Of a stretch of 54,330 bases of DNA, positions 29,549 to 52,588 are shown one piece after another. The DNA is from a virus. The stretch's first letter is position 1. Each line of letters starts with the position of its first letter. The position numbers and the translations under genes were made by a program. The notes beneath the pieces are model-generated. The model saw only the letters and a program-made list of their open reading frames with translations, had not been told where the DNA came from and searched no databases. The stretch spans positions 1 through 54,330 of the IMG/VR virus record IMGVR_UViG_3300044846_004207. One strand, 5' to 3'.

Positions 29549-30267
29549 AGAATAGATAAAATACTTTTTACAAGAAAATCAACGGACTCATTTTGAGTTT
29601 TTTTCTTTTTTGGTTTGTATGAAACCATTATTGGTTTTTGTCCCTTTCCTGTTTGAGTATCTTTTTTCTCGGCTCTTCTTTTTTGTTGACATGCAGCTCT
29701 TTTTTGTGCTGCCGTCATATTTCTTGCAACATTCACCGCTCTACATTTAGGATAACCCTTCGATTCACCTTCAGGTCTACCACATGGTGGATGTCCACCA
29801 CCTTCCTTTTTTCTGCAAATATTAACCCAAGGACCTTGTGGTTGTTTAGAACCTTTTCCTTTCTTTTTTGTTCCAAACCAAACTGCCAAATCTTCATTTA
29901 AATTAATACTATCTAACTCAACCCATTCTTTTAGTGGTACAAAATTTTTATTTTTTCCTGGCGTTGCATTTATAATTCCTCCGTCATCATCACTAAATGT
30001 TTTATGAGTCTTATTATATTTAGAAATTTTACGTGCCTTTGATTCCATTTTTTTAATGTTTTTTTTACCAGTATCTAATGTACCATCATAACTATCATAT
30101 TCTAATTCGGCATTGAAAAAATCAGAAACTTTGGTGCTAAATGGTGCAGTTTCAGTTTTGTTCCATTCAATCTCGCCCATAGTTAAAGGTCCGTTATATG
30201 ATCCAGCGTATCTATTAGAATTTGCTTCTTTAATGATTGTCCTTACAATATTTTTTATATTTAACAT
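29545..30267 (-). CDS. Probable packaged basic protein with capsid-targeting-like N-terminus
   Basis: A 240-residue protein. It opens MLNIKNIVRTIIKEANS, with I12-K13-E14 before Ala15, the same length and spacing as the N-terminus of the protein at 28741 and an excellent match to (L/I)xE|A prohead protease sites. Residues about 130-240 are strongly basic, with LAVWFGTKKKGKGSKQPQGP, WVNICRKKEGGGHPPCGR and a run of Arg/Lys/Ala near KRAACQQKRRAEKK. This Cys/His/Arg pattern recalls a DUF5872-type domain, though I am not certain. It could be a DNA-binding internal head protein. A candidate late promoter lies 15 nt upstream. Confidence 0.55.
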   Translation of the reverse strand: MLNIKNIVRTIIKEANSNRYAGSYNGPLTMGEIEWNKTETAPFSTKVSDFFNAELEYDSYDGTLDTGKKNIKKMESKARKISKYNKTHKTFSDDDGGIINATPGKNKNFVPLKEWVELDSINLNEDLAVWFGTKKKGKGSKQPQGPWVNICRKKEGGGHPPCGRPEGESKGYPKCRAVNVARNMTAAQKRAACQQKRRAEKKDTQTGKGQKPIMVSYKPKKKKTQNESVDFLVKSILSIL

Positions 30268-30281
30268 ATAAACTGTTTATA

Positions 30282-30289
30282 TATAAATA
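30282..30289 (-). promoter_or_regulatory. Candidate late promoter motif
   Basis: TATTTATA on the minus strand (context AATATATTTATATATAAAC), ending 14 nt before the ATG of the gene at 30267. Confidence 0.5.
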
Positions 30290-30301
30290 TATTATAACTT
30301 C

Positions 30302-31387
30302 TTATTTAAATACTTTTTTCATTGTACCATCGTCATAAATTATAACATAAATTTCATTTGACGAAAAATCATTAACTTCTTGTCCCATCATATTAATAAT
30401 TTTTATTATTTTTTTTTGATTTAAGGAATTATCTATTGATACAACATTGAAGTATTCTTTTTCACCATTAAAATCTGTTTGATACAATCTATAATAGTTT
30501 ATTTCACCTCTTTTAAATGTTTTATCAGTGTATGAATAGTTTAATACTTCTTGTGAATTACCAGCACCCCCCATATTTGTTATGGTTTCCCAATAACTAC
30601 CATCAATAGAACGTTCAAGTGTAAAATAATTGTTATCTTTTTCAGATGCGGTAGCCCAATATAATAAATTAATCCCATCATTTTCTGTCCCATCAAAGAA
30701 AATAAGTTCTATTGGTAATGGGATTATTTCAATAAGTTCAATATTATCAATCCACCATTCTTCACCTGAGGCATTTACTCTACATAAAATATCTATGGCA
30801 ACTTGTGATATATTTGTTGGGAGATTAAGTGTGATTGTGGAAGGTCCTGTAGTAGTTACCCCCGCAGGTGCTTGATAAACGTCACCCGTTGGTGCGACTG
30901 AATTAGTAAAACTTCCATTTGCTGTGTGGGTGATTGTTCCTGTTGCGGTATAATCCCATCTTGCGTTATTATTACCTGTGATTCTTAATTCGGAAATATA
31001 ATTAACCCCCCCATTTGTAGAAACTTGAACATCGACAATATCAGCAACATCTACCCCCCTTGTTGTTGCGGTTGAATTTGAAAATGTGTATGAAGCCAAA
31101 CGAAATTTAAGTTGGTATTGTCTGTTTATGTTTAAACCCGTTACATTTGGTAACGAATACCAATCTTGTTCATTACCCGATGTTCCCGAACCTGAACCAT
31201 ATATTACAGCACTAAGTGTTGGTGAAACAGATGCGTTATTAAACCAACCTGCCGTCACCGCTGGTGTCCACCATCCGGCAGATAAGTATACGGATGATGA
31301 AGTTTCCATATTATCAAACTGAATAACTGTTTGACTTATTAGTATATTTGATACTAAAACAAATAACGTAATTAATAAATTTTTCAT
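30302..31387 (-). CDS. Secreted protein with T9SS-like C-terminal sorting domain
   Basis: A 361-residue protein with a signal peptide (MKNLLITLFVLVSNILISQ), a beta-rich domain to about residue 215 (GWWTPAVTAGWFNNASVSP; a probable carbohydrate- or surface-binding sandwich), and a C-terminal region that begins PLPIELIFFDGTENDGINLL and ends IINMMGQEV ... NEIYVIIYDDGTMKKVFK. That tail closely resembles the type A C-terminal domain of Bacteroidota proteins secreted by the type IX system (GxYxIxxxDGxxxKxxK ending). It is very unusual between head genes of a phage and looks acquired from a host. No catalytic motif is evident. Confidence 0.7.
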   Translation of the reverse strand: MKNLLITLFVLVSNILISQTVIQFDNMETSSSVYLSAGWWTPAVTAGWFNNASVSPTLSAVIYGSGSGTSGNEQDWYSLPNVTGLNINRQYQLKFRLASYTFSNSTATTRGVDVADIVDVQVSTNGGVNYISELRITGNNNARWDYTATGTITHTANGSFTNSVAPTGDVYQAPAGVTTTGPSTITLNLPTNISQVAIDILCRVNASGEEWWIDNIELIEIIPLPIELIFFDGTENDGINLLYWATASEKDNNYFTLERSIDGSYWETITNMGGAGNSQEVLNYSYTDKTFKRGEINYYRLYQTDFNGEKEYFNVVSIDNSLNQKKIIKIINMMGQEVNDFSSNEIYVIIYDDGTMKKVFK

Positions 31388-31486
31388 ATGATTTCTTTTT
31401 AAATAATTATATGAAACATTTTATTTTTTTAAAACAGATTTAATTGATATTTTATCAAATAATAGTTTTACACGAATATAATGGGG

Positions 31487-32176
31487 TTAATTTAAAATTT
31501 TATTTGACTTACGGATGTTCTCATCTCCCCATAATGGCTGGAGGTTTTCTAATGACCAACATTTATTAAACCCCTCGTCACCTATTTCTTTAATATCAAA
31601 TGATGAAATTGGGATGATGTGATCTACGTGCCATTCCCCATAATTATCCCAAGTAATATCTCCTGTAAATTTGTTTTCTAAATGTTCTATTAATTGTTCG
31701 GGAGTATAATTTAGTATCTCAAAATAGTGTCCGTTTTTTTGAATGTTTCTTTCTTTTAATACTTGATAAATTGCAGTTCTGAAATTGTTGATTAACTTGT
31801 ATATTGGATCGTTTGCTTTACGAGTTTTTTCGTAATTTCTTTTGGTTTCTCTAATTTTATCTATATTTTTTTCACGGTATTCTTTCATATATTCTTTACG
31901 GTGTTCTTTATTTTGTTCGTACCATTTATCGTAATTTTTTCTTTTACGTTCTTTAGTTTGTGGTTTTAATTCATATTTTTTCATTGCAATTTTCCTACCA
32001 CCAATATTTCTCCTACCAGAATTACCCATAACAATACCATTGTCTTTTAATATACGAATTATTGTTGGTTTACTTAAACCCGTTTTTATAGATATTGTAT
32101 GGGATCCAAGTAAATCTTCATTGTACCATTTTAATATATCGGTTAATTCTTCTTGTGTAGGAATATATTTCTTCAT
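31487..32176 (-). CDS. HNH homing-type endonuclease
   Basis: A 229-residue protein. The N-terminal ~50 residues are a helix-turn-helix (SHTISIKTGLSKPTIIRILK), then a long Lys/Arg/Glu-rich linker, then an HNH nuclease core: EWHVDHIIPISSF with the catalytic His, CWSLENLQPLWGDENIRKSN with the structural Asn and terminal block. It sits directly downstream of the capsid gene, a common insertion point for free-standing homing endonucleases. It is preceded by its own TATTTATA motif and separated from the capsid gene by a terminator. Confidence 0.88.
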   Translation of the reverse strand: MKKYIPTQEELTDILKWYNEDLLGSHTISIKTGLSKPTIIRILKDNGIVMGNSGRRNIGGRKIAMKKYELKPQTKERKRKNYDKWYEQNKEHRKEYMKEYREKNIDKIRETKRNYEKTRKANDPIYKLINNFRTAIYQVLKERNIQKNGHYFEILNYTPEQLIEHLENKFTGDITWDNYGEWHVDHIIPISSFDIKEIGDEGFNKCWSLENLQPLWGDENIRKSNKILN

Positions 32177-32180
32177 ATAG

Positions 32181-32188
32181 TATAAATA
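32181..32188 (-). promoter_or_regulatory. Candidate late promoter motif
   Basis: TATTTATA on the minus strand, 4 nt before the ATG at 32176 (context ATATATTTATACTATATG). Confidence 0.45.
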
Positions 32189-32230
32189 TATTACATTTTA
32201 CCAAAAAATCAATTGTTAACTTTATTGTAT

Positions 32231-32258
32231 AAAAAAAGGGACAATTTCTTGTCCCTTT
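32231..32258 (-). terminator. Intrinsic terminator after the capsid gene
   Basis: Read on the minus strand: AAGGGACAA, loop GAAA, TTGTCCCTT, followed by a run of T. Perfect 9-bp stem with tetraloop, 24 nt after the capsid stop. It would end the head-gene transcript and explains why the HNH gene has its own promoter-like box. Confidence 0.85.
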
Positions 32259-32281
32259 AAGGTGTTATTTAAGGTTTTTGA

Positions 32282-34096
32282 TTATCTCAATTCTCTTAAA
32301 TCAAATGTACGAACACCATCAACTGTAATTCGGCCGTAGAACCTGTTATTTACCATCTTCTTAGCGTATCTTGTCATAATACCTTTGATTGGTGTAAAGT
32401 TAAATGGATTGTACATTGTAGGTGTCAATTGTAGAGGTACATACGGTGCGTAAACGTACCCAGTATCCAACAATGATGTTCCTTTATGTCCAATTAGGAT
32501 TTGGTTTGGTGGGAAGTATGGGTCACGGTACACTTGGTAACGTCCTGCCAATGTTCCAACTCTTTCAATACCCATATTGTACTGATCTTGCTCAGGAGAT
32601 GCGTTAGATACGTGGAAGTATTCTAAATCATCAAAGATTGCAGAAACTTCAGAAGATACAACAATCCAGTTAGCTCCACCTCTCAATGTAGATTTGTGGA
32701 TTTGTGCTGACAATTGGTTGATTGCTGTAATCAAAGTTTGATTCCAATCTTTTTGAGTGTATGATGTTGTTTGAGAAATTCTTCTCCATCCGTTGTAATC
32801 CCAACGTAGGTTCCATGCTGCTCCTTTTCTCAAGTCACGTAGAATTTCACGGTCGATTTCTGCTGCCACTTGCTCAGAAAGTAAAGCTGTCAATTCAGCT
32901 TCAGCATCGATGTTGTGGAATGCAGAAACGTCTTGTGCTAATTCAGGAGACCATTGAGCTCTTAGTTTTCTTTCAGTTACAGAAACAGTTACTGATTCTA
33001 AATCAAAAGAAACCTCACCAATTTTGTCTTCGAATTCAAGTTCAGCATATCTTCTATACACAACAGTAAATGCCGATCCAGAAGTTACAGCTGAAAGAGT
33101 TGCTCCTGTGTAACCATCTAAAGATGTTGCATTACAGTCAGCACATACAGGACAAGAAAGATCAACTTCTAAAAAGATACAACCATTTTGGTCACAAACA
33201 TCATCATAAGATCCACCATTTCCTGACGCAGGGAACGTAGCTTGTGTTTGAGTATATGTAGGTTGTACAATTCCTTTACCATAAATTTGAGTAACAACTC
33301 TAAACAAAAGTGGTCCAGAACCTACAGAACAAGGGGATGTTGCAGAAACACCTAAACCTGTACTTTTAGCTACTTTCAAGTCAGAAAGGAACGCTTCAGT
33401 ATCAATTTCGTTACCATCAGGTCCGATTAATTTACCTACACCAGCATTTGCAAAACCACATACTTTGATGATTACTTTTCTAACACCTGTTGTTTCATAA
33501 TCAGTTTCGTTTGGTACTAATGTACCGTTACTCCAAGAAACAGTAGTAACTTCAGGAGCAGTAACTGCTGTCCATTGTCCTTTTGAATAATCAAAAAGTC
33601 CTGGTGGATCTAAAGCCGCCTCAGCACCTTCGTAGAATAAATCGTAAAGATTTTTTGCGTAAGCATTTGCATCGTTGTAACCACTATTTGTGTCTGTACT
33701 TGAACCAGGAGCTCCAATTGGTGCAAAGTGAGAACCACCATTAGCAGTTGCTCCGTTATAACCTTGGATTTTAGGTACAAAGTAGAACAATTTACCGATA
33801 GGTAAGTTCATTGCTTGTACAGAAACGATGTCGTTTGCCAACAATTTAGAGAATACACGTCTTACGATAGGGAAAACTACAGTTTCGAAAGAACCTGAGC
33901 TATCAGTTGACGCAGCTTCGTTAATTAGGTGAGATGCTTGGTTTTCATATAATTGTGCCATATTCTCTTTAATGTGACCTTTAAGTCCATCTAGGAATCC
34001 TAATCTATCCCATTTGTTAATTGTATCTTCTTTGATAACTTTAAGGTGCTTAAGACCGATGTTACCAACAAGACCTGATTCTAATAATGCTCCCAT
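32282..34096 (-). CDS. Major capsid protein, T4 gp23-like
   Basis: A 604-residue capsid protein. The N-terminal 60 residues end in SHLINE|AASTDSSG; I58-N59-E60|A61 is an ideal gp21-type cleavage site, in the same place as the T4 gp23 cut after residue 65. After the cut come PIVRRVFSKLLANDIVSVQA and MNLPIGKLF (gp23 VRRAIPNLIAFDICGVQPM block), and later LRAQWSPELAQDVSAFHNID with AEAELTALLSEQVAAEIDRE, diagnostic of gp23. It is about 80 residues longer than T4 gp23; the extra sequence includes a Cys cluster (CDQNGC, CPVCADC). The C-terminus is TVDGVRTFDLRELR. Located between scaffold and terminator. Confidence 0.93.
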   Translation of the reverse strand: MGALLESGLVGNIGLKHLKVIKEDTINKWDRLGFLDGLKGHIKENMAQLYENQASHLINEAASTDSSGSFETVVFPIVRRVFSKLLANDIVSVQAMNLPIGKLFYFVPKIQGYNGATANGGSHFAPIGAPGSSTDTNSGYNDANAYAKNLYDLFYEGAEAALDPPGLFDYSKGQWTAVTAPEVTTVSWSNGTLVPNETDYETTGVRKVIIKVCGFANAGVGKLIGPDGNEIDTEAFLSDLKVAKSTGLGVSATSPCSVGSGPLLFRVVTQIYGKGIVQPTYTQTQATFPASGNGGSYDDVCDQNGCIFLEVDLSCPVCADCNATSLDGYTGATLSAVTSGSAFTVVYRRYAELEFEDKIGEVSFDLESVTVSVTERKLRAQWSPELAQDVSAFHNIDAEAELTALLSEQVAAEIDREILRDLRKGAAWNLRWDYNGWRRISQTTSYTQKDWNQTLITAINQLSAQIHKSTLRGGANWIVVSSEVSAIFDDLEYFHVSNASPEQDQYNMGIERVGTLAGRYQVYRDPYFPPNQILIGHKGTSLLDTGYVYAPYVPLQLTPTMYNPFNFTPIKGIMTRYAKKMVNNRFYGRITVDGVRTFDLRELR

Positions 34097-34129
34097 TTTT
34101 TATTTTTTTAATTTGAGTTTATTTATTGT

Positions 34130-35767
34130 TTATTTTATTTTTCCCATTAAATCCTTCATTCTCAAGAATTGTGGATTTTCATAAGTTTTATTTTCAATTA
34201 GATTAGTAGAGGAACCATTAGAAGGTGTTTGAACAACTCTTCTTTCAATTGATTCTTTAATTGTATTGGTAGAACCTTTACCGTCTAATTCTGTTTTGAT
34301 TGTTTTGTATAAAGATTTTGATTCTTTCAAAGTATCAACTTCGTCAAATCTTCTAAGAATGTTAATCTTTTCTTGTTTAGTTGTTGAATGTTCTGTGAAC
34401 AATCTTGTAGAGTATGCTAAATTGGAATTGAATACAGCAACTTCATTTAATTTGTTTCTGAAGAAATCTAAAGCCTTTTTGTACTCTTCATTTTTTTCTC
34501 TCAACAAATTAACTTCTTGTTGTACAGATTCAGTATGAACTCCATTTTCTCCGTAAACAAGATTTCTGTTTGGTGTAATACCTTTTCTTAAACCTCTACC
34601 TCTTTTGGAACCTTTTCCGTAAGTTCTTGCGGCTTCGTTGTGTTCTGCTTCCATTTCATCAACTTCATCAAGTTCTTTGTCTTCCATTTCGGTAACTCCG
34701 TGTTTAATTTTAGGGTAATTGAATTTAGGTCCTTTTCTTTTGTTTTTGTCACCTAATTTCATTTCATCTTTGAAACCTTTATTGTTTACTTCCATTTTAG
34801 AGAAAGTTTTCATTGGTTTACCGAAACCAAGTCCGATAGCTCTAAATGATTCCATTACAGAATCTAAAACATCTTGATCGATTTCATAAACATTTTCTTC
34901 TTGCTCTTCTTTGTCCATATCCCAACCTTCGAATTCTTCTTCTTCATTGTACATACCTTCGAATTCTTCTTCTTCATTGTACATACCTTCGAATTCTTCT
35001 TCTTCATTGTACATACCTTCGAATTCATCTTCTTCATTGTACATACCTTCGAATTCATCTTCTTCGTTGTACATATCTTCGAATTCATCTTCTTCATTGT
35101 ACATACCTTCGAATTCATCTTCTTCGTTGTACATATCTTCTTCGTCCATATACATTTCTAAATTGTCCGACTCATCAACTTCTAACTCATATATTACATT
35201 TTCTGCCATTTGAGCTTGTTCGTTATCTTCGAAAGTGTCGTCAGCATCACTAATTAGATATTCAGCATCTGTATCGTTATCTTTCAAATGAATATAATCA
35301 TTATCCTTTTTAACAATGATACCGTCTTCATCACCCATCGCTTTGAATACTTTCAAAATTTCTTCAGGAGTTGCAGTTGTCATATCTAATGGTGGCATTT
35401 CGTCACCTTCTTCATTATCACCCATCATCATAGGTTCTTCTAGGTCTAATGTATCGCCTACATTTTCATCGCCTTGCGGCTCATCGAATTTTTCTACTGC
35501 CGAAAAATCAACCTCATCTTCTCCTTCAGGTTCAAAATCCATCTCTGCATCAGCATCAATTTCTTCTTCTCCTTCAGGTTCTTCTGGTGCATCTTGTTCA
35601 CGTAGATTTTTTTTGTAACCACCTAATGATTCTTTTACTAACTCACTGATTTCTTCCTTCATTGTAGAAGCAAGTATTCCTTTTGCGTTTTCATTGATAG
35701 CATCTTCAAGGTTTTTTATTTGTAATAAAGCCTCTTCAACTACCGATTTATTTTCATTTATTCCCAT
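34130..35767 (-). CDS. Prohead core/scaffold protein, gp22-like, with acidic repeats
   Basis: A 545-residue, very acidic protein in the T4 position of the scaffold gene, between the protease and the capsid genes. Residues 1-60 are helical (SVVEEALLQIKNLEDAIN), 60-160 rich in Glu/Asp/Pro, then seven exact 10-residue repeats of the type MYNEEDEFEG, then a Lys-rich segment (GKGSKRGRGLRKGI) and a C-terminal coiled coil. Internal (I/L)xE sites such as EEISEL would allow digestion by the prohead protease, as for T4 gp22. Sequence similarity to gp22 itself is not visible; the call rests on position, charge and helical content. Confidence 0.7.
   Translation of the reverse strand: MGINENKSVVEEALLQIKNLEDAINENAKGILASTMKEEISELVKESLGGYKKNLREQDAPEEPEGEEEIDADAEMDFEPEGEDEVDFSAVEKFDEPQGDENVGDTLDLEEPMMMGDNEEGDEMPPLDMTTATPEEILKVFKAMGDEDGIIVKKDNDYIHLKDNDTDAEYLISDADDTFEDNEQAQMAENVIYELEVDESDNLEMYMDEEDMYNEEDEFEGMYNEEDEFEDMYNEEDEFEGMYNEEDEFEGMYNEEEEFEGMYNEEEEFEGMYNEEEEFEGWDMDKEEQEENVYEIDQDVLDSVMESFRAIGLGFGKPMKTFSKMEVNNKGFKDEMKLGDKNKRKGPKFNYPKIKHGVTEMEDKELDEVDEMEAEHNEAARTYGKGSKRGRGLRKGITPNRNLVYGENGVHTESVQQEVNLLREKNEEYKKALDFFRNKLNEVAVFNSNLAYSTRLFTEHSTTKQEKINILRRFDEVDTLKESKSLYKTIKTELDGKGSTNTIKESIERRVVQTPSNGSSTNLIENKTYENPQFLRMKDLMGKIK
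34926..35135 (-). repeat. Seven tandem 30-bp in-frame repeats
   Basis: Seven contiguous 30-bp units encode MYNEEDEFEG-like decapeptides in the scaffold protein. Units differ by a few bases (GAT or GAA at one codon, G or D at the last). Flanking coding sequence is continuous and there are no unique spacers. The pattern suggests slippage-driven expansion of an acidic spacer. Confidence 0.95.
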
Positions 35768-35800
35768 TTTAAATGCAATACGTTATGCGTTTATTTACCA

Positions 35801-35808
35801 AATAAATA
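35801..35808 (-). promoter_or_regulatory. Candidate late promoter motif
   Basis: TATTTATT on the minus strand (context ACATATTTATTTGG), 33 nt before the ATG of the scaffold gene at 35767. The surrounding 150-nt gap also holds a terminator for the upstream genes. Confidence 0.4.
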
Positions 35809-35872
35809 TGTACAATGTTGAAAAAAATCGTTATCGAATGTATTTTATCTGAAAAAAATTAATTTTTGGCAT

Positions 35873-35901
35873 AAAAAAAGGATGAACATTTGTCCATCCT
35901 T
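35873..35901 (-). terminator. Intrinsic terminator after the protease transcript
   Basis: Read on the minus strand: AAGGATG, G, ACA ... TGT, T, CATCCTT, followed by seven T in total; a strong stem with one internal mismatch. It lies 20 nt after the stop of the small gene at 35922. Confidence 0.8.
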
Positions 35902-35921
35902 ATCAATTTTTAAGTTTTTAG

Positions 35922-36131
35922 TTATTCGATTACCTCGTCAATTTTACTTTCAACAATCGCCGTAATCCTCCAATCCATAGTATAAGATTCATAAGCCTTT
36001 GTTACTTTTGCTTCTACATCTGTTGGTGAATACCCTCTAACTAATTTTTCTTCTTTAATCTTTTTTACCTTCCCTGTGTTTTCGTCTACCATATCTGTGG
36101 TAACTCTTGCTACAAAATATTTTTCATCCAT
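35922..36131 (-). CDS. Small DUF4494-like protein
   Basis: A 69-residue protein: MDEKYFVARVTTDMVDENTG, then KKIKEEKLVRGYSPTDVEAK and a final WRITAIVESKIDEVIE. The pattern (a strand with VARV, then K..E.yLV.a.S.teAEa.v) resembles DUF4494, a family of small Bacteroidota proteins. Role unknown. It follows the prohead protease gene with a gap of 6 nt and is probably co-transcribed with it. Confidence 0.5.
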   Translation of the reverse strand: MDEKYFVARVTTDMVDENTGKVKKIKEEKLVRGYSPTDVEAKVTKAYESYTMDWRITAIVESKIDEVIE

Positions 36132-36137
36132 AATTAA

Positions 36138-36842
36138 TTATTTTCCTAAATAATCGGATAATCTTTTCATTAAGTCAACAGAACCTTGTAAAGGATTAGT
36201 CACGTTATTTTCGTGTTCAGTAAGTTTTTCTTCGTATTTAGGTCTATCTTCTTTATTTAAATAAAGATATGCACCAGGAGTAGAAGGGGATGATACTAAG
36301 TCAAAACATATTAGTTCAAAATCTTCTTGCACTTCATTTTGTTCTCCTTTTTTAACAAGTGAACCAACCCCACGAGAAGACACCCCCATAGTAACACCTT
36401 GTCTCATCATATTTGCAGCAATATCCCCTTTGGATGATACAATTCCTCTTTCGTGAAAACCAGGTGTGGTTAATAATTTAATTTTACCCATTAAAACATT
36501 ATCTTCCCACCATACATCAGTAATCAAATGTGCAACTCTATCTAAATCAATTAAAGATGAATCGGGGTGATTTAACTCGGATATAGACATACCCCGATTA
36601 ATCATTTCTTTATATTTTTCAGCTTCTCGTTTTAATATTTTTTCAGGGTAAATTCTTCCATTTCTGTTTGGAACTCCATACTTTTGAAGTGTTGCGTAAA
36701 AAACAAATGGTTTAGAGTAATCTAATTGACCATAAGATTCGTTTATTGTTTTGTTATTTCTAACATCATTTAAACTAATCAAACCTGCGTCATGCTCAAT
36801 TAATATCCCCTTACCAATATCATTGGGTCCTAATATTCTCAT
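36138..36842 (-). CDS. Prohead maturation protease, T4 gp21-like (peptidase S77)
   Basis: A 234-residue serine protease that would digest the scaffold and trim capsid proteins. The family pattern is clear: KYGVPNRNGRIYPEKIL, then SELNHPDSS with catalytic His92, then VTMGVSSRGVGSL with catalytic Ser155 or 156, and FELICFDLVSSPSTPGAYL containing the conserved Asp181. Length fits T4 gp21 (212 residues). T4 gp21 cuts after (L/I)xE; matching sites are seen in the capsid protein and in several small proteins of this window. A candidate late promoter lies 13 nt upstream. Confidence 0.92.
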   Translation of the reverse strand: MRILGPNDIGKGILIEHDAGLISLNDVRNNKTINESYGQLDYSKPFVFYATLQKYGVPNRNGRIYPEKILKREAEKYKEMINRGMSISELNHPDSSLIDLDRVAHLITDVWWEDNVLMGKIKLLTTPGFHERGIVSSKGDIAANMMRQGVTMGVSSRGVGSLVKKGEQNEVQEDFELICFDLVSSPSTPGAYLYLNKEDRPKYEEKLTEHENNVTNPLQGSVDLMKRLSDYLGK

Positions 36843-36855
36843 AATACTTTTTAAG

Positions 36856-36863
36856 TATAAATA
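36856..36863 (-). promoter_or_regulatory. Candidate late promoter motif
   Basis: TATTTATA on the minus strand (context ATAATATTTATACTTAAAA), 13 nt before the protease ATG at 36842. It lies in the 21-nt gap after the upstream gene. Confidence 0.5.
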
Positions 36864-37313
36864 TTATATACCAACGAATTCTTTTGTTTTTGTTTTACTT
36901 AATGTGAAGTATTTGGAGTTTTTTAGTTCATCAATGTAGATTGATTGTGCGATTTTTTTAATTTTACTTCTCAAAATTAAGGATTTAAAATCATAATCGT
37001 TGTTATGAACAAAAAGGGTTATTTCTAAATTTAAAAAACTTTTTTTGTTTTTTTGTATACCACTTGTTCTTAAATCTAAATCAACAATTTGTTTTCTTTC
37101 AAATGTGTTTGTTTCTACTACCTCTAATAAATTATGTAATATCTGTCTTTTAATTTGCCCTGTTATTTTAGTCCAATTTGTGTAATCATCATTTGGTTCA
37201 ATCCAAGTTTGTATTACGATGTATAAAGATTTAAAATCTTTGGAGTCGACTGTCCCGTAATAACATTTAGCATCATCAAAAATGTTTAATTTTGATGTTT
37301 TTCCTTTTTTCAT
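36864..37313 (-). CDS. Head-region protein, function unknown
   Basis: A 149-residue protein, basic at the start (MKKGKTSKLNIF) and with beta-strand-rich middle (SLYIVIQTWIEPNDDYTNWT; SFLNLEITLFVHNN), ending in a Lys-rich helix. I see no family match. It is placed between the prohead protease and the bS21/holin-like region, where T4-like phages keep small head or neck genes, so a virion assembly role is plausible but unproven. Confidence 0.55.
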   Translation of the reverse strand: MKKGKTSKLNIFDDAKCYYGTVDSKDFKSLYIVIQTWIEPNDDYTNWTKITGQIKRQILHNLLEVVETNTFERKQIVDLDLRTSGIQKNKKSFLNLEITLFVHNNDYDFKSLILRSKIKKIAQSIYIDELKNSKYFTLSKTKTKEFVGI

Positions 37314-37394
37314 TTTTCATAACTTAACCGTTTATTATTTTAGTTAAATATAAAAAAATATTTATGATATGTCAAAATTTAAAAAAATCCTTTA

Positions 37395-37402
37395 TATTTA
37401 TA
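37395..37402 (+). promoter_or_regulatory. Candidate late promoter motif for bS21
   Basis: TATTTATA on the plus strand (context CTTTATATTTATACAGG), 19 nt before the bS21 ATG. It points opposite to all neighbouring genes, matching the orientation of the bS21 gene. Confidence 0.5.
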
Positions 37403-37421
37403 CAGGAAACGACAAAAAATT

Positions 37422-37604
37422 ATGATTATAGTAGAAGTTAAGAATTCAAACTCAATTGAAAGTGCACTTAAAACCTATAAATTCAAAGTTTACAAAACAA
37501 AACAGAATGAAATTTTGAGAAATAGGCAAGAGTATGTGAAACCATCGGTAAAAAAAAGATCTGAAAAGAACAAAGCGATTCACATTCAGAAATTAAAAAA
37601 GTAG
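37422..37604 (+). CDS. rpsU: Ribosomal protein bS21
   Basis: A 60-residue protein with the bS21 signature: MIIVEVKNSNSIESALKTYK (IxVKxxExIExALKxxK), then QNEILRNRQEYVKPSVKKR (ExRxRxxYxKPSxKR). Length and basic C-terminus fit Bacteroidota bS21. bS21 binds the 30S platform next to the 3' end of 16S rRNA. It is the only plus-strand gene within the minus-strand head cluster, with a promoter-like box upstream and a terminator at its end. No strong Shine-Dalgarno sequence is near the start; an AGGA lies 14 nt away. Position 54, by ungapped alignment to Flavobacterium bS21 from memory, is His where the host has Tyr. Confidence 0.88.
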   Translation: MIIVEVKNSNSIESALKTYKFKVYKTKQNEILRNRQEYVKPSVKKRSEKNKAIHIQKLKK

Positions 37605-37618
37605 TTACTTACTTTTTT
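37595..37618. terminator. Bidirectional terminator between bS21 and the holin-like gene
   Basis: AAAAAAGTA, loop GTTACT, TACTTTTTT: a weak AT-rich stem with T runs on both strands, spanning the stops of the two convergent genes. Confidence 0.5.
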
Positions 37619-37844
37619 TATCCTTATTACCAAAGATTCTTTCAGTCGAAGTTAATCCCAAAGTACCAAAGGCAAGTAAACCTACAGTTTCAACTAGTAT
37701 ATCTGATGGTGCATAATCACCATGCGAAAAAGAATTCGCTAAAAGTGTTACGTTTAAGAATAATACACAGATTAAACCAGATAATCTTTTTGATGATATA
37801 CTACCTGATTCATCGCTCAATAATTTAATGAAAAAATTTTTCAT
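37605..37844 (-). CDS. Small two-helix membrane protein, holin-like
   Basis: A 79-residue protein with a short charged N-terminus (MKNFFIKLLSDESGSISSKR), a hydrophobic helix around residues 22-38 (LSGLICVLFLNVTLLAN), a second around 50-66 (VETVGLLAFGTLGLTS) and a charged C-terminus (GNKDKKSK). Size and topology match phage holins, and I recall similar proteins annotated that way in Bacteroidota phages. No endolysin gene is adjacent, so the lysis role is tentative. Its start overlaps the upstream gene by 4 nt. Confidence 0.5.
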   Translation of the reverse strand: MKNFFIKLLSDESGSISSKRLSGLICVLFLNVTLLANSFSHGDYAPSDILVETVGLLAFGTLGLTSTERIFGNKDKKSK

Positions 37845-38575
37845 AGTCCCGCATTTAAATTTTTAAGTTTATATAAATTGTAATGATCATATTTAGATTC
37901 TTGAATTTTTTTAATTGTATTATTTACAGCATTATTTAATTCAACATCCTTTGATTCATTAAGGTTTGATTTAAGTTTTGATATTGCTTCTTTCTTTAAT
38001 AAGTCCATTTCTTTTTTTATTTCAGAAGAAGAAAGAGAAACGATAGAATTTAATTCCTTTTTTTCTTGTTCTGATAAAGTTGCAAAATGGTTATTTAAAG
38101 TAGAATTTGCAATTTTTAACATCGAGGTTAAAGGTACATTAAAATTCGTGGTTGGTTTTTTAACTTCCTTTACACCTTCAGTAAGAGTACTTTTAATTTT
38201 TCTTTTAGACTCAAGTACAGACTCAAGATTTTTGATATTATTATTATAAATCATAACATCAATATCTTTATAATCGTTGTTATTTTTCTTTACAATATTA
38301 TTAATCCAATTATTTGTTTTTGAAATTGTTTCATCATTATTTTCTATCAAAATTTGAGCGTATTCTATTGATTCATTAATATAATCGTCAGCAATATCTG
38401 AAGGTAAATTTTTATTTGTAGATAAATCGTCGTATATATAATATAATTCAGATAAATCTTTATTTTCCAAAACCATTTTTTTGAACTGACTCATAAATGT
38501 TTTGAAATGTGGTTTACCATACATCTCTACAGACGCTTTTTCTATTTTTGATTTAATATTTCCAAAAGTATTCAT
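37841..38575 (-). CDS. Helical head-assembly protein, function unknown
   Basis: A 244-residue, Lys/Asn/Glu-rich, almost wholly helical protein directly downstream of the portal gene, where T4 keeps prohead core genes 67 and 68. Potential (L/I)xE cut sites occur, for example STLTEGV and SNLNESK. These features fit a small prohead core component, but there is no recognisable family similarity. It is preceded by a TATTTATT box. Confidence 0.5.
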   Translation of the reverse strand: MNTFGNIKSKIEKASVEMYGKPHFKTFMSQFKKMVLENKDLSELYYIYDDLSTNKNLPSDIADDYINESIEYAQILIENNDETISKTNNWINNIVKKNNNDYKDIDVMIYNNNIKNLESVLESKRKIKSTLTEGVKEVKKPTTNFNVPLTSMLKIANSTLNNHFATLSEQEKKELNSIVSLSSSEIKKEMDLLKKEAISKLKSNLNESKDVELNNAVNNTIKKIQESKYDHYNLYKLKNLNAGL

Positions 38576-38586
38576 ACTGTTTTTAC

Positions 38587-38594
38587 AATAAATA
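38587..38594 (-). promoter_or_regulatory. Candidate late promoter motif
   Basis: TATTTATT on the minus strand (context TAAATATTTATTGTAAAAAC), 11 nt before the ATG at 38575. Confidence 0.4.
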
Positions 38595-38595
38595 T

Positions 38596-40413
38596 TTACT
38601 TATCTATTAAATCGTTAAGTTTTTGATTAATTTCTACAAGAGAATTTTTTCCTTTTGATAAATCCATAGTGTTATTACCATAAAAAAGGGTTTCTTCTAA
38701 GATTAAATCTAACCCATCTTTTACAAATCCTTCAGGTGCCAAACCAGCTTCACCTCCCGGAGGTGGTGCTCCACCTGGTTCAGGTTCAGATCCTCCCGGA
38801 GGTGGTGCTCCACCCATATCACCTCCACCGGCACCACCTTCTGCAGGTGCTCCGCCAGCTTCATCATCCTTTTTACCGTATAAATTATCGATATTATCAA
38901 ATAACCCTGTTTTAGTAATAACTTCTGCAGTTTTACCAAGTTCAGCAGAAACCGCCCTTTCAATTCTTTGTTGTTGTAAGTCAAGTCTTATTTCTTCATC
39001 TGAGAAACCAAGTATGTGTTTCTTAGCCCAAGAAGCAGAAACAGGAGCAACAGTATCAGCAATCGGTGTAACAGCATCTTTATATAATGTAATTTTTTCT
39101 TTCCAAACCTCAACACCAAGTAAATCAGCCTGTTTAGATGGGTTATGTAATCCTAAACTGAAATTAGTAAGTTCGTCCTCGAATCCTAAAAGAAATAAGT
39201 GAATTATTGCAATTTTGTTTAATTCGGAAAGCATAGATTTTTGAATCCTATTGATTGTTCTAGCAAATCTAATATCTAAAAGAGAAAGGTTTTTTCCATC
39301 ACCAACAGCCTCCTCAAAACCTAAATATGCCTTTGGTACTCTTAATGCCGTTACAAGTTTCTTTTGGATATATTCAATATCTGCAATTTCCGCTAAGTTT
39401 GTACCTCCAGGTAAAGTTTCTATTGGGTTGGTTTGTGCTGGGTCTCTAACAGGGATAAAGAAATCTTGATCGACAGCAAGTTGGTTATATCTTAAATCGA
39501 CGTTTCCTGTTTTTGGATCGGCAATCTGGTCTCTTTTAAATTTATTTGCAACTCTTTGTACATATGGATCAACATCTTTATCATCCATATTACCAACAAA
39601 CACTTTAAATACTCTTCTTTCAGGTGCTCTTGAAACACGATAAATTAACATAGCATCTTCAGATAATAAAAGTTGTTTCCATATTCTTCTTGCTTTTTCT
39701 AACATAGAAGTACCATAAGGTAATTTTCTATCATCACCTAAAATTCTAAAGTGTCCAACTTCCCAAAGATTAAATTCCATATTCTTTTCTTTCCACACGA
39801 ACTTTAATGCATCGTTCTCCATTTCTTGGGAATACTTATCGGGTTGAAATCTCATCCCTTTTTCTAACCTTTCAATTTGTATATTTGGTAATTGTTGGCA
39901 ACCAACTACCCCTTTTTCGGGATCTAATTTTAGATAAACAAAATTGTCACCAAATTTACAAGTGTTTCTTGTCCACATCGGTAAATTGGTATTAATGTCC
40001 AATCTTGTTACAAATAAGTCAGTTAATACAGATTTGATTCTTTTTGATTCTGAATAAACTTTTAAAATGTCTCCGTCTTTATCGGGAGTAGTAGATTCTT
40101 CGGCATAAACATCAAGTGCTGCTGAAATTTCAGGAGTATATTCCATAGATTCGTAATCATAGTATGAAGCCATTCTTGTTGGTTCATAATAGACAGCTTG
40201 TTGATATAAATTGGATTCAACCTTTTGCCATTGTTTACCCAAATATACAGTTTGTTGTGCTTGAAGTTTTTCAACTTCATATTCTTTTTTGTCTGTAGTT
40301 TTAAGTAATTCTTTTTTATCGAATTTGAATACGGGGGATTGTTGATCTAAAGTTGCACTCGGTCCAAATGCTTTACTCAACCTTTGCCATATTGTATATT
40401 TATCTTGTGCCAT
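38596..40413 (-). CDS. Portal protein, T4 gp20-like
   Basis: A 605-residue portal (head-tail connector) protein. Family-like blocks include YDYESMEYTPEISAALDVYA followed by EESTTPD, then PMWTRNTCKFGDNFVYLKLD, APERRVFKVFVGNMDDKDVD, ARTINRIQKSMLSELNKIAI and GLHNPSKQADLLGVEVW, in the order of T4 gp20. The C-terminal ~90 residues contain a Pro/Gly/Met-rich, low-complexity stretch (GGGDMGGAPPPGGSEPEPGG) that T4 gp20 does not have. Located between terminase and core genes as in T4. Confidence 0.92.
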   Translation of the reverse strand: MAQDKYTIWQRLSKAFGPSATLDQQSPVFKFDKKELLKTTDKKEYEVEKLQAQQTVYLGKQWQKVESNLYQQAVYYEPTRMASYYDYESMEYTPEISAALDVYAEESTTPDKDGDILKVYSESKRIKSVLTDLFVTRLDINTNLPMWTRNTCKFGDNFVYLKLDPEKGVVGCQQLPNIQIERLEKGMRFQPDKYSQEMENDALKFVWKEKNMEFNLWEVGHFRILGDDRKLPYGTSMLEKARRIWKQLLLSEDAMLIYRVSRAPERRVFKVFVGNMDDKDVDPYVQRVANKFKRDQIADPKTGNVDLRYNQLAVDQDFFIPVRDPAQTNPIETLPGGTNLAEIADIEYIQKKLVTALRVPKAYLGFEEAVGDGKNLSLLDIRFARTINRIQKSMLSELNKIAIIHLFLLGFEDELTNFSLGLHNPSKQADLLGVEVWKEKITLYKDAVTPIADTVAPVSASWAKKHILGFSDEEIRLDLQQQRIERAVSAELGKTAEVITKTGLFDNIDNLYGKKDDEAGGAPAEGGAGGGDMGGAPPPGGSEPEPGGAPPPGGEAGLAPEGFVKDGLDLILEETLFYGNNTMDLSKGKNSLVEINQKLNDLIDK

Positions 40414-40456
40414 TGTTATATTTTTTTATTAAAAATTAAATAGGTTTGTCTATAAA

Positions 40457-42232
40457 CTAAACCCTTTTACTACCGAATAACCATAAATAGTTTTCATAGT
40501 CACTTTTAGTCGGTCCACTTTTAGGGTAATTATTCAACCCATAAACATCTACAGGTATTCCGGGATTAAAACTTCTTGTCGGATCTGAATGAACTTTTGT
40601 TTCAACTTGCCAAGATTCTAACATTGCTTTTGTTTGTTCTGTAACCTTTTCTAACTGTGCAAATGATGTTTCAGCAACATAAATTGCCATAGCAAGAGCC
40701 ATAATTAAATCATCGTGTTGTCCTTTTTGGTGGTCAGGTCTACCATTAATGTACACAAATGTGTTTAATTCATTAAACAACCTTTGGGACTTCACACTAA
40801 AGTTATGTCTTAATGCTTCCTCAAAAGATGCTACTATTTGTACCCTTTTACTGTTAAAGTTAATTCCTGGTATTTTTTCTTGTGCTTTAGGATTCCACTT
40901 CCATTTATCTGCAGGGTTAACCCCATCAACATATAAATTTTTATATCCAAGTTCTTGTAGTTTTCTTGAAGTCGCAACACCCATTCCGCCTGTAATATCA
41001 GTAACAATAAGTGCGTTATACATCGTCCCCCATTTATAAGCGATTTCTGCAACAACATCAGGTGGTACTTTTGCTATGTATTCTAAAACTTGTTCTCTTT
41101 CCTCAAAATCGATGATAATAAATGTCGTAAAATCTTCACTGTCTCCTCTTGAAACGTCCATACCAAGTATATATCTGTGTCCTTGTACCGGTTCTTTCCA
41201 CTGCCAAAGAACTCCACCCATAAATTTATTTTCAGGTTCTCTAATATGGTTCTCTTTAATTTTTTTCATTGTTTCAGGTGGTATTACGTTATCCCCTGAA
41301 CCAAGAAAGTTACATTCTAATTCCTGTGAAATTTTTCTTTTATCAAACTTTAGTTTTTTTGCCATAGCCTCAAACCAAGAACTATATGCTTTGTACCCGT
41401 TTTCAACCTTTTCTTTTATCTCTTGAAAATTTCTATCTGAAACTTTAATATTACTATAGTCAATTGTTATTTCATCATCTTTATAATCAGAACGATTTAA
41501 CATATAGTGGACAATATCATCACATTTTATAAGTTTTAAATCTTTAGAATACCTTGGATCTCTAAACCAATACATTTCAGTGATTCTAAAGTCATTCATT
41601 CCTTTTATTGCCTGACTATAAATCGAATAATATATAGGGTCGAATCCGTTAGGTGTTGATATTACAATAACTTTACCTCCCGTTGAGAGGGATGCCATAC
41701 ACGCCGACCAAAAATCCTCATCAGCGTCAATATATGCTGCTTCATCAAAAATTAGAATTGTTGGTGTATATCCACGAAGTGCATCTTTAGATGTTGCAAC
41801 TGCCTTAACCTCACACCCGTTTGTTAATTTAAAATGTCTTTGTGAATTTTTTTCATTTGAAAATGTCACGCCTAACCATTTCGGCCACTGATCAACAAAT
41901 GCCCTTACTTTATTTGCCATTTCGACAGCAGTATCAAGTTTGTTTGCAATTATTAGGATTTTTTCGGGCTTTTCTTTACGGGCAAATACCAATCTTTTAG
42001 ATGCCCAAGCAGATGTTACAGTAGATACTCCCGCTTGTCGATATTTAAGTGCGATATTTTCTTCACACTCATCATAATCTTTAACTAAAGTTACTTGATC
42101 GTTAAAAAGTTCTAACGGAACATATTTTGATTGTGTGTTATCGTAAGTTTGTAAATATGTTTTTAGTGCGTAAGGTGTATCTCTGACGCATTTCGCATAT
42201 TCTAATAGTGCTTGTTCTTTCGATAACGCCAT
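40457..42232 (-). CDS. Terminase large subunit, T4 gp17-like
   Basis: A 591-residue packaging motor. The ATPase part has a Walker A-like RQAGVST (65-71), Walker B ILIFDEAAYID (160-169) and the coupling motif VISTPNG. The nuclease part begins at GMDVSRGDSEDFTTFIIIDF, with later acidic residues in VTDITGGMG and KGQHDDLIMALAMAIY, the usual RNase H-like triad. Size and order match T4 gp17. The small terminase subunit was not recognised. Start lies 4 nt after the stop of the upstream gene. Confidence 0.95.
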   Translation of the reverse strand: MALSKEQALLEYAKCVRDTPYALKTYLQTYDNTQSKYVPLELFNDQVTLVKDYDECEENIALKYRQAGVSTVTSAWASKRLVFARKEKPEKILIIANKLDTAVEMANKVRAFVDQWPKWLGVTFSNEKNSQRHFKLTNGCEVKAVATSKDALRGYTPTILIFDEAAYIDADEDFWSACMASLSTGGKVIVISTPNGFDPIYYSIYSQAIKGMNDFRITEMYWFRDPRYSKDLKLIKCDDIVHYMLNRSDYKDDEITIDYSNIKVSDRNFQEIKEKVENGYKAYSSWFEAMAKKLKFDKRKISQELECNFLGSGDNVIPPETMKKIKENHIREPENKFMGGVLWQWKEPVQGHRYILGMDVSRGDSEDFTTFIIIDFEEREQVLEYIAKVPPDVVAEIAYKWGTMYNALIVTDITGGMGVATSRKLQELGYKNLYVDGVNPADKWKWNPKAQEKIPGINFNSKRVQIVASFEEALRHNFSVKSQRLFNELNTFVYINGRPDHQKGQHDDLIMALAMAIYVAETSFAQLEKVTEQTKAMLESWQVETKVHSDPTRSFNPGIPVDVYGLNNYPKSGPTKSDYENYLWLFGSKRV

Positions 42233-42236
42233 TCAT

Positions 42237-42761
42237 TTAGTTTTTTCTTTTAATCATTTTAATTAACTCACCTTTAGTCGTATGTGGAGGTAAATGTTTT
42301 TCTAAAAGTTTAAGAATTCCTTCCTCAAGTTTTTTTACTTCGTTAGTTTCTGTTTTCTTTTTTGGTAAACCTTTATGTTTGGTTGATGCAAAATCTTCTA
42401 AATCTTTTTCTGACATTTTTTTTGCCATATCTTGCACCTTTTTTGAAACTTTAGATTTAGGTGTGTCACCTCTTTTTACTGAAAGAGCTAAACCCATAAT
42501 TTTTTGTTGTTGTTTAGAAACCGCTTTTTCTGTCATTTCACCTTCTTCCATTTCTTCTTCGTATGTGACAAATGGTTTTTTTTCTGATTTAGCTTTGGTA
42601 ATTGCATCAGTATCTGCTTTAGGTATATTCAGAACACCTGTTGATTGTTCAACAACTCTTTTATATAAAGCATTTAATTGTTTCCCATCCAATTTTTCCA
42701 AGGTACTAATTGAAAATCCTTCATAAAGAAGTTTAGCCAATTTAGGATTCATATGTTTCAT
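42237..42761 (-). CDS. DUF3008-like protein
   Basis: A 174-residue protein, Lys/Glu-rich. Residues about 78-130 contain AVSKQQQKIMGLALSVKRGD, then KVQDMAKKMSEKDLEDFAST and KHKGLPKKK, the pattern of DUF3008, a domain frequent in large marine phages. Function unknown. It lies immediately before the terminase gene, the place of the small terminase gene in T4, yet it lacks a recognisable DNA-binding domain. Start alternatives at Met1 or Met4; its start overlaps the upstream gene by 20 nt. Confidence 0.65.
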   Translation of the reverse strand: MKHMNPKLAKLLYEGFSISTLEKLDGKQLNALYKRVVEQSTGVLNIPKADTDAITKAKSEKKPFVTYEEEMEEGEMTEKAVSKQQQKIMGLALSVKRGDTPKSKVSKKVQDMAKKMSEKDLEDFASTKHKGLPKKKTETNEVKKLEEGILKLLEKHLPPHTTKGELIKMIKRKN

Positions 42762-43161
42762 CTTGCACTAAAGTTTTTTCCCATTTTAATACGATATCTC
42801 GTTCATATAATTTGTTTTCAATTTCTTTTTCAGTTTCACCAAAATTGAAAACCAATCTTTTTTTCTTTTTTATTAATATTTCGTCACTATCCGATCTTTC
42901 CCACCCAAGAGCAATTACACCATCAACTGAATCATACACACCAAAGAAATCAGAATTCTGTATAAGATTTAATTCTATTAATGAATTTTTCAAAGTTCCA
43001 ACTCTTTTAATAAACTGAATTTCAGGTGGTTGTGGTTTTCCTGAAGCAGGTTCCGAATCCCAATCTTCACCCCAAACATCGTCCAAGTCAGAAAAGATAA
43101 ATTCATATATATTATCACCTTTATAATTTGGACCCAATTCATTTATATAAATCAATCTCAT
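42742..43161 (-). CDS. Conserved phage protein, function unknown
   Basis: A 139-residue protein: MRLIYINELGPNYKGDNIYE, FIFSDLDDVWGEDWDSEPAS, then a beta-rich domain (SDFFGVYDSVDGVIALGWER) and a Glu/Lys-rich C-terminal helix. The motif DLDDVWGEDWD is striking but unassigned. It overlaps both neighbours and is translationally coupled with them in the packaging operon. Confidence 0.6.
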   Translation of the reverse strand: MRLIYINELGPNYKGDNIYEFIFSDLDDVWGEDWDSEPASGKPQPPEIQFIKRVGTLKNSLIELNLIQNSDFFGVYDSVDGVIALGWERSDSDEILIKKKKRLVFNFGETEKEIENKLYERDIVLKWEKTLVQDETYES

Positions 43162-44519
43162 ATAATATCTCCGTTTGGTGTTACTTTTACTTGTTTACCG
43201 TTAATCGTAAAAACTAAATTTTTCTTATTTGTTAAACCAATGATTTTTGCGTTTGTATTTTCTTCCAACAAATAAAAAGCACTTAATCTTTGATTTTTTG
43301 TTTCACTTAATCTGTGAATTTCATTCTTTGTTTCAATTTTGTTAATTTTTTCTTTCAAAAATTGTTTCTTCTTTTTATTTTCTAAAATAGTTTTTTCACT
43401 TGGTTTAATATCAAAATATTTAGAAAGTACTTTTTCCACTTTAGATTCACTATAGATAGAATCTGTCATATAACCATAAGTTTCTTTTGGTTCTGACATC
43501 ATAGGTTCTTCAGTTGACATTGGTTCTTCTCCACCCAAATCAAATTCATCTTCTGAACCTAAGTCAAGTTCACCTGGACCTTCAGCACCGTAATCATCCG
43601 ATTCTTCGAATTTTGAAAGAATGTCTTCTTTATCATCCTCATCAAGATTTTCTAAATCAATTGCCGATAATATTGAATTTACAACATATTTTATATCTTG
43701 AGAATCCATACCTTTTTCTTTATCGTAAGCTCTGATTTTTTGTCCTAATTTTCCTGTAAGTTTTTGTATTGTTTTTAATGCGTAAGGCTCACCTGTTTCA
43801 TCGGATTCTCCACCCATTGGTGGTTCTCCCCCCATATCTTCTTCTCCCCCCATCGGTGGTGCTTCAGATCCCATATCTTCAGGTGGTAACCCCATACCTT
43901 CTTCACCTCCCATTGGTGGTGCTTCTGCTCCCATATCACCTCCTTCTGCTGGTGGGGCACCCATATCTCCCCCTTCCATTGGTGGTGGTACGCTTGCTCC
44001 CATATCTGCAGGTGGTGGAGGTGTACCCATATCAGCAGGTGGTGCCCCTGCTCCCATATCAGCAGGTGGTGGTGCACTTGCTCCCATATCAGCGGGTGGT
44101 GGAGGTGTTTCTACTGAAGGTTCAGTTACGGGTTTACTTTTTTTTTTAGTTCTGAGAACAAATCTTTGTTCTCCGATTAATGGAATCTCATTCTCGTTTT
44201 CGTGAATACGATTTAATTCACCAGCCAACAAGTTTAATTTTTTCATCGCCTCTGAATAAGATCTAAAATATTTTCTATGTCTAATAGAATCAGTATAATC
44301 TAAATTAGATTCATTAATTCCTTGTTTAATTATATATCCCAATCTTTCTTTTACAATACCATAGGTATTTCCATCAGCCAATTTGATAGTATAATTTAAT
44401 GTTGATAGTTCATTAATTTCTTGTTTAGGTGTTTCATTATATCTTGCAATTTCAAGGATACGTTTAATTTTATCCATACCTTGTAATTTTTCACTACCTA
44501 GTGGTTTTAAATCCGCCAT
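43158..44519 (-). CDS. Head-operon protein with Pro/Gly/Met-rich repeats
   Basis: A 453-residue protein. Residues about 1-125 form a globular or helical domain, about 130-240 a low-complexity stretch of PPPADMG, GGDMG, PPMGGEE units, followed by an acidic helical domain (LSAIDLENLDEDDKEDILSK) and a C-terminal small beta domain ending TINGKQVKVTPNGDII. The low-complexity segment resembles the C-terminal tail of the portal protein. It is the first gene of a coupled group leading to the terminase. I do not know its function; a scaffold or virion role is plausible. Confidence 0.55.
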   Translation of the reverse strand: MADLKPLGSEKLQGMDKIKRILEIARYNETPKQEINELSTLNYTIKLADGNTYGIVKERLGYIIKQGINESNLDYTDSIRHRKYFRSYSEAMKKLNLLAGELNRIHENENEIPLIGEQRFVLRTKKKSKPVTEPSVETPPPPADMGASAPPPADMGAGAPPADMGTPPPPADMGASVPPPMEGGDMGAPPAEGGDMGAEAPPMGGEEGMGLPPEDMGSEAPPMGGEEDMGGEPPMGGESDETGEPYALKTIQKLTGKLGQKIRAYDKEKGMDSQDIKYVVNSILSAIDLENLDEDDKEDILSKFEESDDYGAEGPGELDLGSEDEFDLGGEEPMSTEEPMMSEPKETYGYMTDSIYSESKVEKVLSKYFDIKPSEKTILENKKKKQFLKEKINKIETKNEIHRLSETKNQRLSAFYLLEENTNAKIIGLTNKKNLVFTINGKQVKVTPNGDII

Positions 44520-44562
44520 TGTTAAATGTTTTTAATGTTTAATTATTTTAAAAAACTTTTTA

Positions 44563-44570
44563 TATAAATA
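44563..44570 (-). promoter_or_regulatory. Candidate late promoter motif
   Basis: TATTTATA on the minus strand (context ATATATTTATATAAAAAG), 43 nt before the ATG at 44519, in a 75-nt gap. Confidence 0.45.
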
Positions 44571-44594
44571 TATTGTTATTTAGTAATTTACTTT

Positions 44595-45368
44595 TTATTC
44601 GTAATTTTCTTGTTCTAAAGATAATCTTTTGTCTGTTATTTTGTTTTTGAAGTTTTCAAGTTTTTCAATATAACCATTTCTTCTTAAGAATTTAAAAACT
44701 AAATTCTCGTATGAAAACTCTCCTTCTTTTTTCAAACCGCACGTTCTATATTTTCTAAGTTTTTCACGATATTTTTTAACTAACTTTACTGCTTCAGGTA
44801 AAGATTTACTTTCAGCGTCATCTAAAGCTCCGTCAATTATGTCCATCCATTGTTCCGCCTTCTGTTTGATTTTTTTCTCGTTAACAACAAACTCTTCTTT
44901 TTTTGGAAATTTTACCCATTCATTTTCCATTAATGAATAAACTCCAGAACTTTCATTTTTTTCATTTAAATCTTGAACGTATACTTCTACTTCATAACCT
45001 TTAATGATAATGTCGTGTGCGGCGTTAAAAACGGTTTTTTTCAATCTAAATAATTCTTCATATAACTCTTTGTCTTCTTCAGCATCATCAAAGTCGTATA
45101 CAATATGTAAATCAAAGTCAGAAAACTCACTCCAATTGTATCCAACAAGAGAACCTACAAGAATTATATCTTGAACAAAAAAATCAACATCAAGATAATC
45201 GATAAATAATTCAGCAATTTTTAAAAGTCTACTTTTTATTTCTGACTTTAATTCGGGGTTTTGTCCTTCAGAATCTCCCGTATTTTTTTCTTTAGTTAAA
45301 TTCCATATATCTGGATTTAACTCGTCCTGTAAATAAAAACTGTTTATTATTTTTTTTGTGTCTGCCAT
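44595..45368 (-). CDS. MNT-type nucleotidyltransferase
   Basis: A 257-residue protein starting MADTKKIINSFYLQDELNPD. I use the ATG at 45368, not an upstream in-frame ATG at 45509, since the longer form would run through the end of the KTSC gene with hydrophobic junk sequence and a promoter-like box lies just upstream of 45368. The core is IILVGSLVGYNWSEFSDFDL, the GS-x-x-G-x-x-W-S-x-x-S-D-x-D-L signature of the DNA polymerase beta-like superfamily, followed by a further Asp/Glu in the strand VEVYVQDLNE. It might modify RNA, protein or a small molecule; similar genes occur in T4-like marine phages without assigned role. Confidence 0.7.
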   Translation of the reverse strand: MADTKKIINSFYLQDELNPDIWNLTKEKNTGDSEGQNPELKSEIKSRLLKIAELFIDYLDVDFFVQDIILVGSLVGYNWSEFSDFDLHIVYDFDDAEEDKELYEELFRLKKTVFNAAHDIIIKGYEVEVYVQDLNEKNESSGVYSLMENEWVKFPKKEEFVVNEKKIKQKAEQWMDIIDGALDDAESKSLPEAVKLVKKYREKLRKYRTCGLKKEGEFSYENLVFKFLRRNGYIEKLENFKNKITDKRLSLEQENYE

Positions 45369-45371
45369 AAA

Positions 45372-45379
45372 TATAAATA
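45372..45379 (-). promoter_or_regulatory. Candidate late promoter motif
   Basis: TATTTATA on the minus strand (context GAGTATTTATATTTATGG), 3 nt before the ATG at 45368; supports the choice of that start. Confidence 0.45.
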
Positions 45380-45390
45380 CTCTAATTGGT

Positions 45391-52586: not shown

Positions 52587-52588
52587 TA

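Follow-up and report, generated by a model that had tools for sequence, protein, structure and literature searches.

The stretch of DNA analyzed here (the window) comprises 54,330 nucleotides, positions 1 to 54,330 of the IMG/VR virus record IMGVR_UViG_3300044846_004207. Flanked by a divergent and a convergent gene without assigned family, an open reading frame on its plus strand translates into a 60-aa protein, MIIVEVKNSNSIESALKTYKFKVYKTKQNEILRNRQEYVKPSVKKRSEKNKAIHIQKLKK, which was identified as ribosomal protein bS21 (Table 1). A profile search matched the protein to Pfam family PF01165 (Ribosomal_S21) with an E value of 2.5e-10 and 40.3 bits, above the curated cutoff of 27. One scan of viral contigs yielded 139 viral relatives, and three further contigs encode an identical protein; in a collection of phage records, bS21 matches were distant only (huge phages and others), with identities of ≤58%. 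Compared to the relative L005, the window gene showed a dN of 0.055 with saturated dS, and its dN/dS was ~0.09 to 0.10 relative to L009 and L015. Saturated synonymous change together with a dN of ~0.06 relative to the nearest distinct relatives indicates strong purifying selection. The Pfam score, the viral relatives, and the purifying selection confirmed the original prediction, made from the sequence alone, of a phage-encoded bS21, and ruled out a chance open reading frame. AlphaFold2 placed helices at residues 9 to 26, 28 to 36, and 41 to 59 with a pLDDT of 85.8 but a pTM of 0.47, and a Foldseek search with this model returned no significant PDB match (best E value, 5.1). Judging solely from family resemblance, the window virus is probably a large phage of Bacteroidota.

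Table 1. Features of the bS21 locus and its surroundings (positions in the window)
Feature	Position	Strand	Evidence
Major capsid protein, T4-like (gp23)	32282..34096	-	PF07068 4e-73
Prohead protease	36138..36842	-	PF03420 2.5e-23
Divergent neighbor, 149 aa, no family	36864..37313	-	ORF and family searches
TATATTTATA, putative phage late promoter element, ~20 nt 5' of ATG	37393..37402	+	Motif enrichment
Phage rpsU, 60-aa bS21	37422..37604	+	PF01165 match; gap-free phmmer alignments with 7jil_z and 9i5v_9; purifying selection
Codons 21-28, encoding the phage-type signature FKVYKTKQ (RKFDKTGT in the host)	37482..37505	+	Alignment; divergent positions of Chen et al.
Codon 54 (His, CAC), aligned with Tyr54 of F. 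johnsoniae bS21	37581..37583	+	Alignments
Weak A/T-rich hairpin at convergent junction, possible terminator	37595..37618	+	-5.4 kcal/mol, z -1.6
Convergent neighbor, 79 aa, no family, abuts bS21 stop codon	37605..37844	-	ORF and family searches
Portal protein, T4-like (gp20)	38596..40413	-	PF07230 4.5e-75
Terminase large subunit	40457..42232	-	PF03237 6.3e-12; phrog_2 3.3e-37

The bS21 gene stands alone against a T4-like head and packaging block: from position 29545 to 45509, every other gene taken as real lies on the minus strand. This orientation opposite to all neighbors, as first noted from the sequence, was confirmed and is kept in essentially all relatives. Chen et al. 2022 (PMC9723584) described 47 Bacteroidetes myophage genomes with a reverse-strand bS21 in the terminase/capsid/protease/portal region. 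The window phage shares with them the opposite-strand bS21 within the block of TerL, portal, prohead protease, and major capsid genes, and a Bacteroidetes-type bS21 with an aromatic residue 54 (His54 in a few of them) and divergent residues 21 to 28, whereas the individual genome differs. Since the FKVYKTKQ signature, His54, and the gene arrangement are already published, the window phage is a further member of this group; the virus type and the His54 variant have been known since 2022. More broadly, bS21 is the ribosomal protein that phages carry most often (PMC9976891). Pelagibacter phage HTVC008M, whose host phylum differs from that of the window phage, also encodes a bS21 (Mizuno et al. 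2019, PMC6375957). Elsewhere in the window, glycan genes lie at 1375-16902 (glycosyltransferases, UDP-galactopyranose mutase, and a GDP-mannose dehydratase-type epimerase), and a ClpA/B/C-like AAA+ protein (48480-50528, phrog_4871) is followed by an M42/M20-like peptidase (50575-51414). McNutt et al. 2023 (PMC9976891) raised the speculative idea of a phage-encoded protease that removes host bS21 in phages of this kind.

To characterize the region 5' of bS21, we pooled the upstream regions of the window genes with those of related loci with distinct bS21s, 245 regions in all. The octamer ATATTTAT was found in 78 of these regions, with 3.3 expected, and its reverse complement in 1; the counts are not independent, because related loci share ancestry. 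Upstream of bS21, TATTTATA was present in 52 of 82 distinct phage sequences, compared to 4% in shuffles, and most phage bS21 genes carry the directional ATATTTAT(A) motif in common with structural genes. Within the window, directional TATATTTATA or TATTTATA copies lie upstream of genes at 37393-37402, 36856-36863, 32181-32190, 30282-30291, and 52579-52588, among others, and the bS21 motif TATATTTATA recurs in closely similar form at the genes for prohead protease and endonuclease VII. Thus, the promoter-like box originally perceived 5' of bS21 was recovered as a motif enriched in the phage group. We consider TATATTTATA/TATTTATA a candidate late promoter of this group, and it corresponds, in reverse complement, to the T4 late box TATAAATA. 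A sigma-70 promoter scan was uninformative for this AT-rich phage. A terminator, also predicted, found weak support in the window: the A/T-rich hairpin speaks weakly for it (z, -1.6), relatives often have a hairpin at the bS21 convergent junction (mean z, -3.3), while a scan for GC-rich terminators, uninformative for an AT-rich phage, detected no canonical terminator at bS21. A second enriched upstream word, AAATAAAC, occurred in 53 of the 245 regions (4.1 expected), for example, 5' of the minus-strand genes at 34130-35767 and 32282-34096; a single conserved gene with homologs across the loci may account for it, as may a sequence context for translation initiation.

We then turned to residue 54, where the original prediction had placed a His at the position of the Flavobacterium Tyr. 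The phmmer alignment of the window bS21 with F. johnsoniae bS21 (PDB 7jil, chain entry 7jil_z; PMC9976891) is ungapped over residues 1 to 59, with 45% identity and the same C-terminal helix, and His54 therefore falls exactly opposite Tyr54. The two proteins differ in that F. johnsoniae bS21 has Tyr54 and RKFDKTGT, and the window bS21 has His54 and FKVYKTKQ. Every alignment was ungapped at position 54, which rules out misalignment; alongside host and other phage bS21s as well, the window protein keeps His, not the Tyr54 of the Bacteroidia type. Among 85 distinct viral bS21s, 77 have Tyr54 and 8 have His54, so that residue 54 is aromatic in 85/85. All 45 distinct Flavobacterium bS21s have Tyr54, and a phylum-wide sample contained two cellular Bacteroidota with His54 (L461 and L464). 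In the set of Chen et al. 2022 (PMC9723584), Tyr54 was present in 54 of 61 phage bS21s and the rest had another aromatic residue, mostly His; these authors predicted that an aromatic residue 54 preserves the stacking on A1534.

In a tree of 131 proteins, phage bS21 formed a clade apart. Six His54 phage proteins, including that of the window, were united in one clade (support, 100/93), and L233, a phage with His54, was separate from it. The viral contig L249 grouped with both cellular His54 forms (100/99), a placement that makes it probable that L249 is cellular DNA or was acquired recently. The alignment has 64 columns only, which makes the deeper forks uncertain; the separate positions of the His54 forms indicate at least three origins of His54, two in phages and one in cellular Bacteroidota. 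Classed as "viral," L249 spans 72 kb and encodes a bS21 almost identical to that of a cellular His54 form; it may be the flank of a prophage or bacterial DNA under a wrong label. The cellular His54 forms resemble the window in carrying His54 in an otherwise normal bS21 encoded by an rpsU without a Shine-Dalgarno (SD) sequence but differ in their chromosomal location, host-type residues 21 to 28, and separate clade. In the window clade, His54 is fixed and has been kept under purifying selection despite saturated synonymous change. Because His is aromatic and is found at this position in cells, the window bS21 likely still works like the anti-SD-masking type.

The original prediction had drawn a different consequence from His54, namely, that ribosomes with the phage bS21 might expose the anti-SD and choose different mRNAs. 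Such a switch has a precedent in the Y54A mutant of McNutt et al. 2023 (PMC9976891), in which an SD reporter rose only 1.7-fold in vivo and ~3-fold in vitro and whose ribosomes translated rpsU mRNA ~3-fold better in vitro, with colonies that look like the wild type; fixation of His54 in the window clade would also fit. However, His is aromatic and Ala is not, making His54 the milder change (our literature search found no Y54H biochemistry), and Tyr54 is retained by most bS21 phages of equal gene context. Nor did the two cellular His54 genomes show an excess of SD sites: AGGAGG-N4-9-ATG and the reversed pattern occurred 155 versus 169 and 162 versus 194 times. The corresponding ratios were ~0.6 to 1.5 in nine Tyr54 genomes and tended to be higher, ~1.1 to 1.9, in five genomes with an Arg-type bS21, in a test that is coarse because all sites were counted, not gene starts alone; an AGT control of the SD-site count did not separate the groups either. 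As had been predicted, the phage genes have hardly any SD, with energies in the window close to those of shuffles (-0.71 versus -0.57; standard deviation, 0.15), and would have nothing to profit from an exposed anti-SD. SD sequences were not commoner in the genes of His54 phages than in the genes of phages with Tyr54. With no SD excess in His54 cells or His54 phages, an aromatic His, and stacking predicted to be kept, altered anti-SD accessibility is unsupported, and we regard it as improbable. These data suggest instead that His54 is a mild, conservative aromatic substitution that leaves normal function intact, and position 54 seems a minor detail.

In the alignment, the main difference between phage and host bS21 lies not at residue 54 but at residues 21 to 28, where Chen et al. 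2022 (PMC9723584) reported phage-host divergence. FKVYKTKQ, in place of the host RKFDKTGT, is nearly constant among the aligned phage bS21s, and any mRNA preference is more likely to stem from these residues than from residue 54. The proposal of Chen et al. that phage-type residues near the mRNA path give ribosomes a preference for phage mRNA has that divergence analysis and the constancy of the signature in its favor; phage ancestry alone could account for these positions, and we hold the proposal only tentatively. It can hold together with the late supply of bS21 discussed below.

The extended SD of Flavobacterium rpsU is the basis of its autoregulation (McNutt et al. 2023, PMC9976891). With a pairing energy of -13 kcal/mol or stronger as the threshold for an autoregulated rpsU, an extended SD was present in 45/45 distinct Flavobacterium genes (median, -19.8 kcal/mol), whereas 0/85 viral bS21 genes reached this value; 75 of the 85 were weaker than -5 kcal/mol, and the median was -0.8. 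The window set, encoding identical proteins, had an energy of -4.3 kcal/mol, short of the threshold. One phage clade (L049, L053, and L059) carries AAAGGAGG ~8 nt 5' of the bS21 start (-12.2 kcal/mol); thus, the SD was not dropped by all phages, and bS21 in this clade may respond to bS21-deficient ribosomes like host rpsU. This SD stands out in a phage group otherwise without SD on its genes. In the phylum sample, ~17 of 38 Tyr54 cellular rpsU genes, extra paralogs included, also had an absent or weak SD, so that SD loss is not confined to phages and the contrast is sharpest against Flavobacterium; SD energies of non-Bacteroidia cellular genes, many with mechanically assigned starts, were left out. 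Some cellular Bacteroidota have two or three bS21 genes per genome (L448/L516/L520, L480/L517, L465/L518, and L405/L451); three of these four genomes keep an extended SD on one copy, and the extra copies have weaker ones or none. The at least three origins of His54, one of them cellular, the missing host extended SD, and the promoter-like motif are added here: a literature search, with subscription journals mostly outside its coverage, found them in no other report, and the main text of Chen et al. 2022 (PMC9723584) lacks promoter and autoregulation terms.

Altogether, the family match, the ungapped alignment, the conserved context, the promoter-like motif, the distribution of His54, and the absence of an SD lead us to favor, with some confidence, a late, feedback-free supply of bS21 that replaces host bS21 on the 30S subunit while the anti-SD stays masked. 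Late replacement had been offered as the alternative to a switch, and the head and packaging context and the promoter-like motif now speak for it. The phage bS21 would probably be made late, from a phage promoter common to structural genes; Chen et al. 2022 (PMC9723584) reported its cotranscription with such genes. It would then take the place of host bS21 on 30S subunits. Stacking of its residue His54 on A1534 of 16S rRNA is most likely retained, as published predictions have it, and would keep the anti-SD masked, and SD-less phage mRNAs would consequently be translated as usual. Lacking the extended SD, phage rpsU should not need bS21-deficient ribosomes for its translation; the phage gene could supply bS21 regardless of host feedback, and its product may keep host rpsU off.

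Whether the supplied protein alters the ribosome at all bears on a simpler reading, in which it merely replaces limiting or damaged bS21 and ribosome behavior is unchanged. The invariably aromatic residue 54 (Tyr or His) of the viral forms and the SD-less gene with its promoter-like motif would suit this reading, but it leaves the separate phage clade with its own signature unexplained, and we think it rather unlikely. The location among head genes would fit a nonribosomal function, or a bS21 carried in the virion and ready for use at once, and Chen et al. 2022 (PMC9723584) considered virion packaging possible; the strongly conserved ribosomal protein sequence, and the reported entry of a pelagiphage bS21 (that of HTVC008M) into E. 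coli ribosomes, cited by both Chen et al. 2022 and McNutt et al. 2023, make such a role very improbable. A late, feedback-free supply may have a further consequence, which we put forward as speculative: phage bS21 freed from rpsU feedback might, through an SD-less mRNA from a late promoter, fill ribosomes with an anti-SD-masking bS21, silence host rpsU, and convert the pool to the phage form, with one clade having a host-like SD instead. Bacteroidota bS21 controls the usability of the anti-SD, and SD-less phage genes set against an SD-controlled host rpsU offer a clear test of phage takeover of a specialized-ribosome switch.
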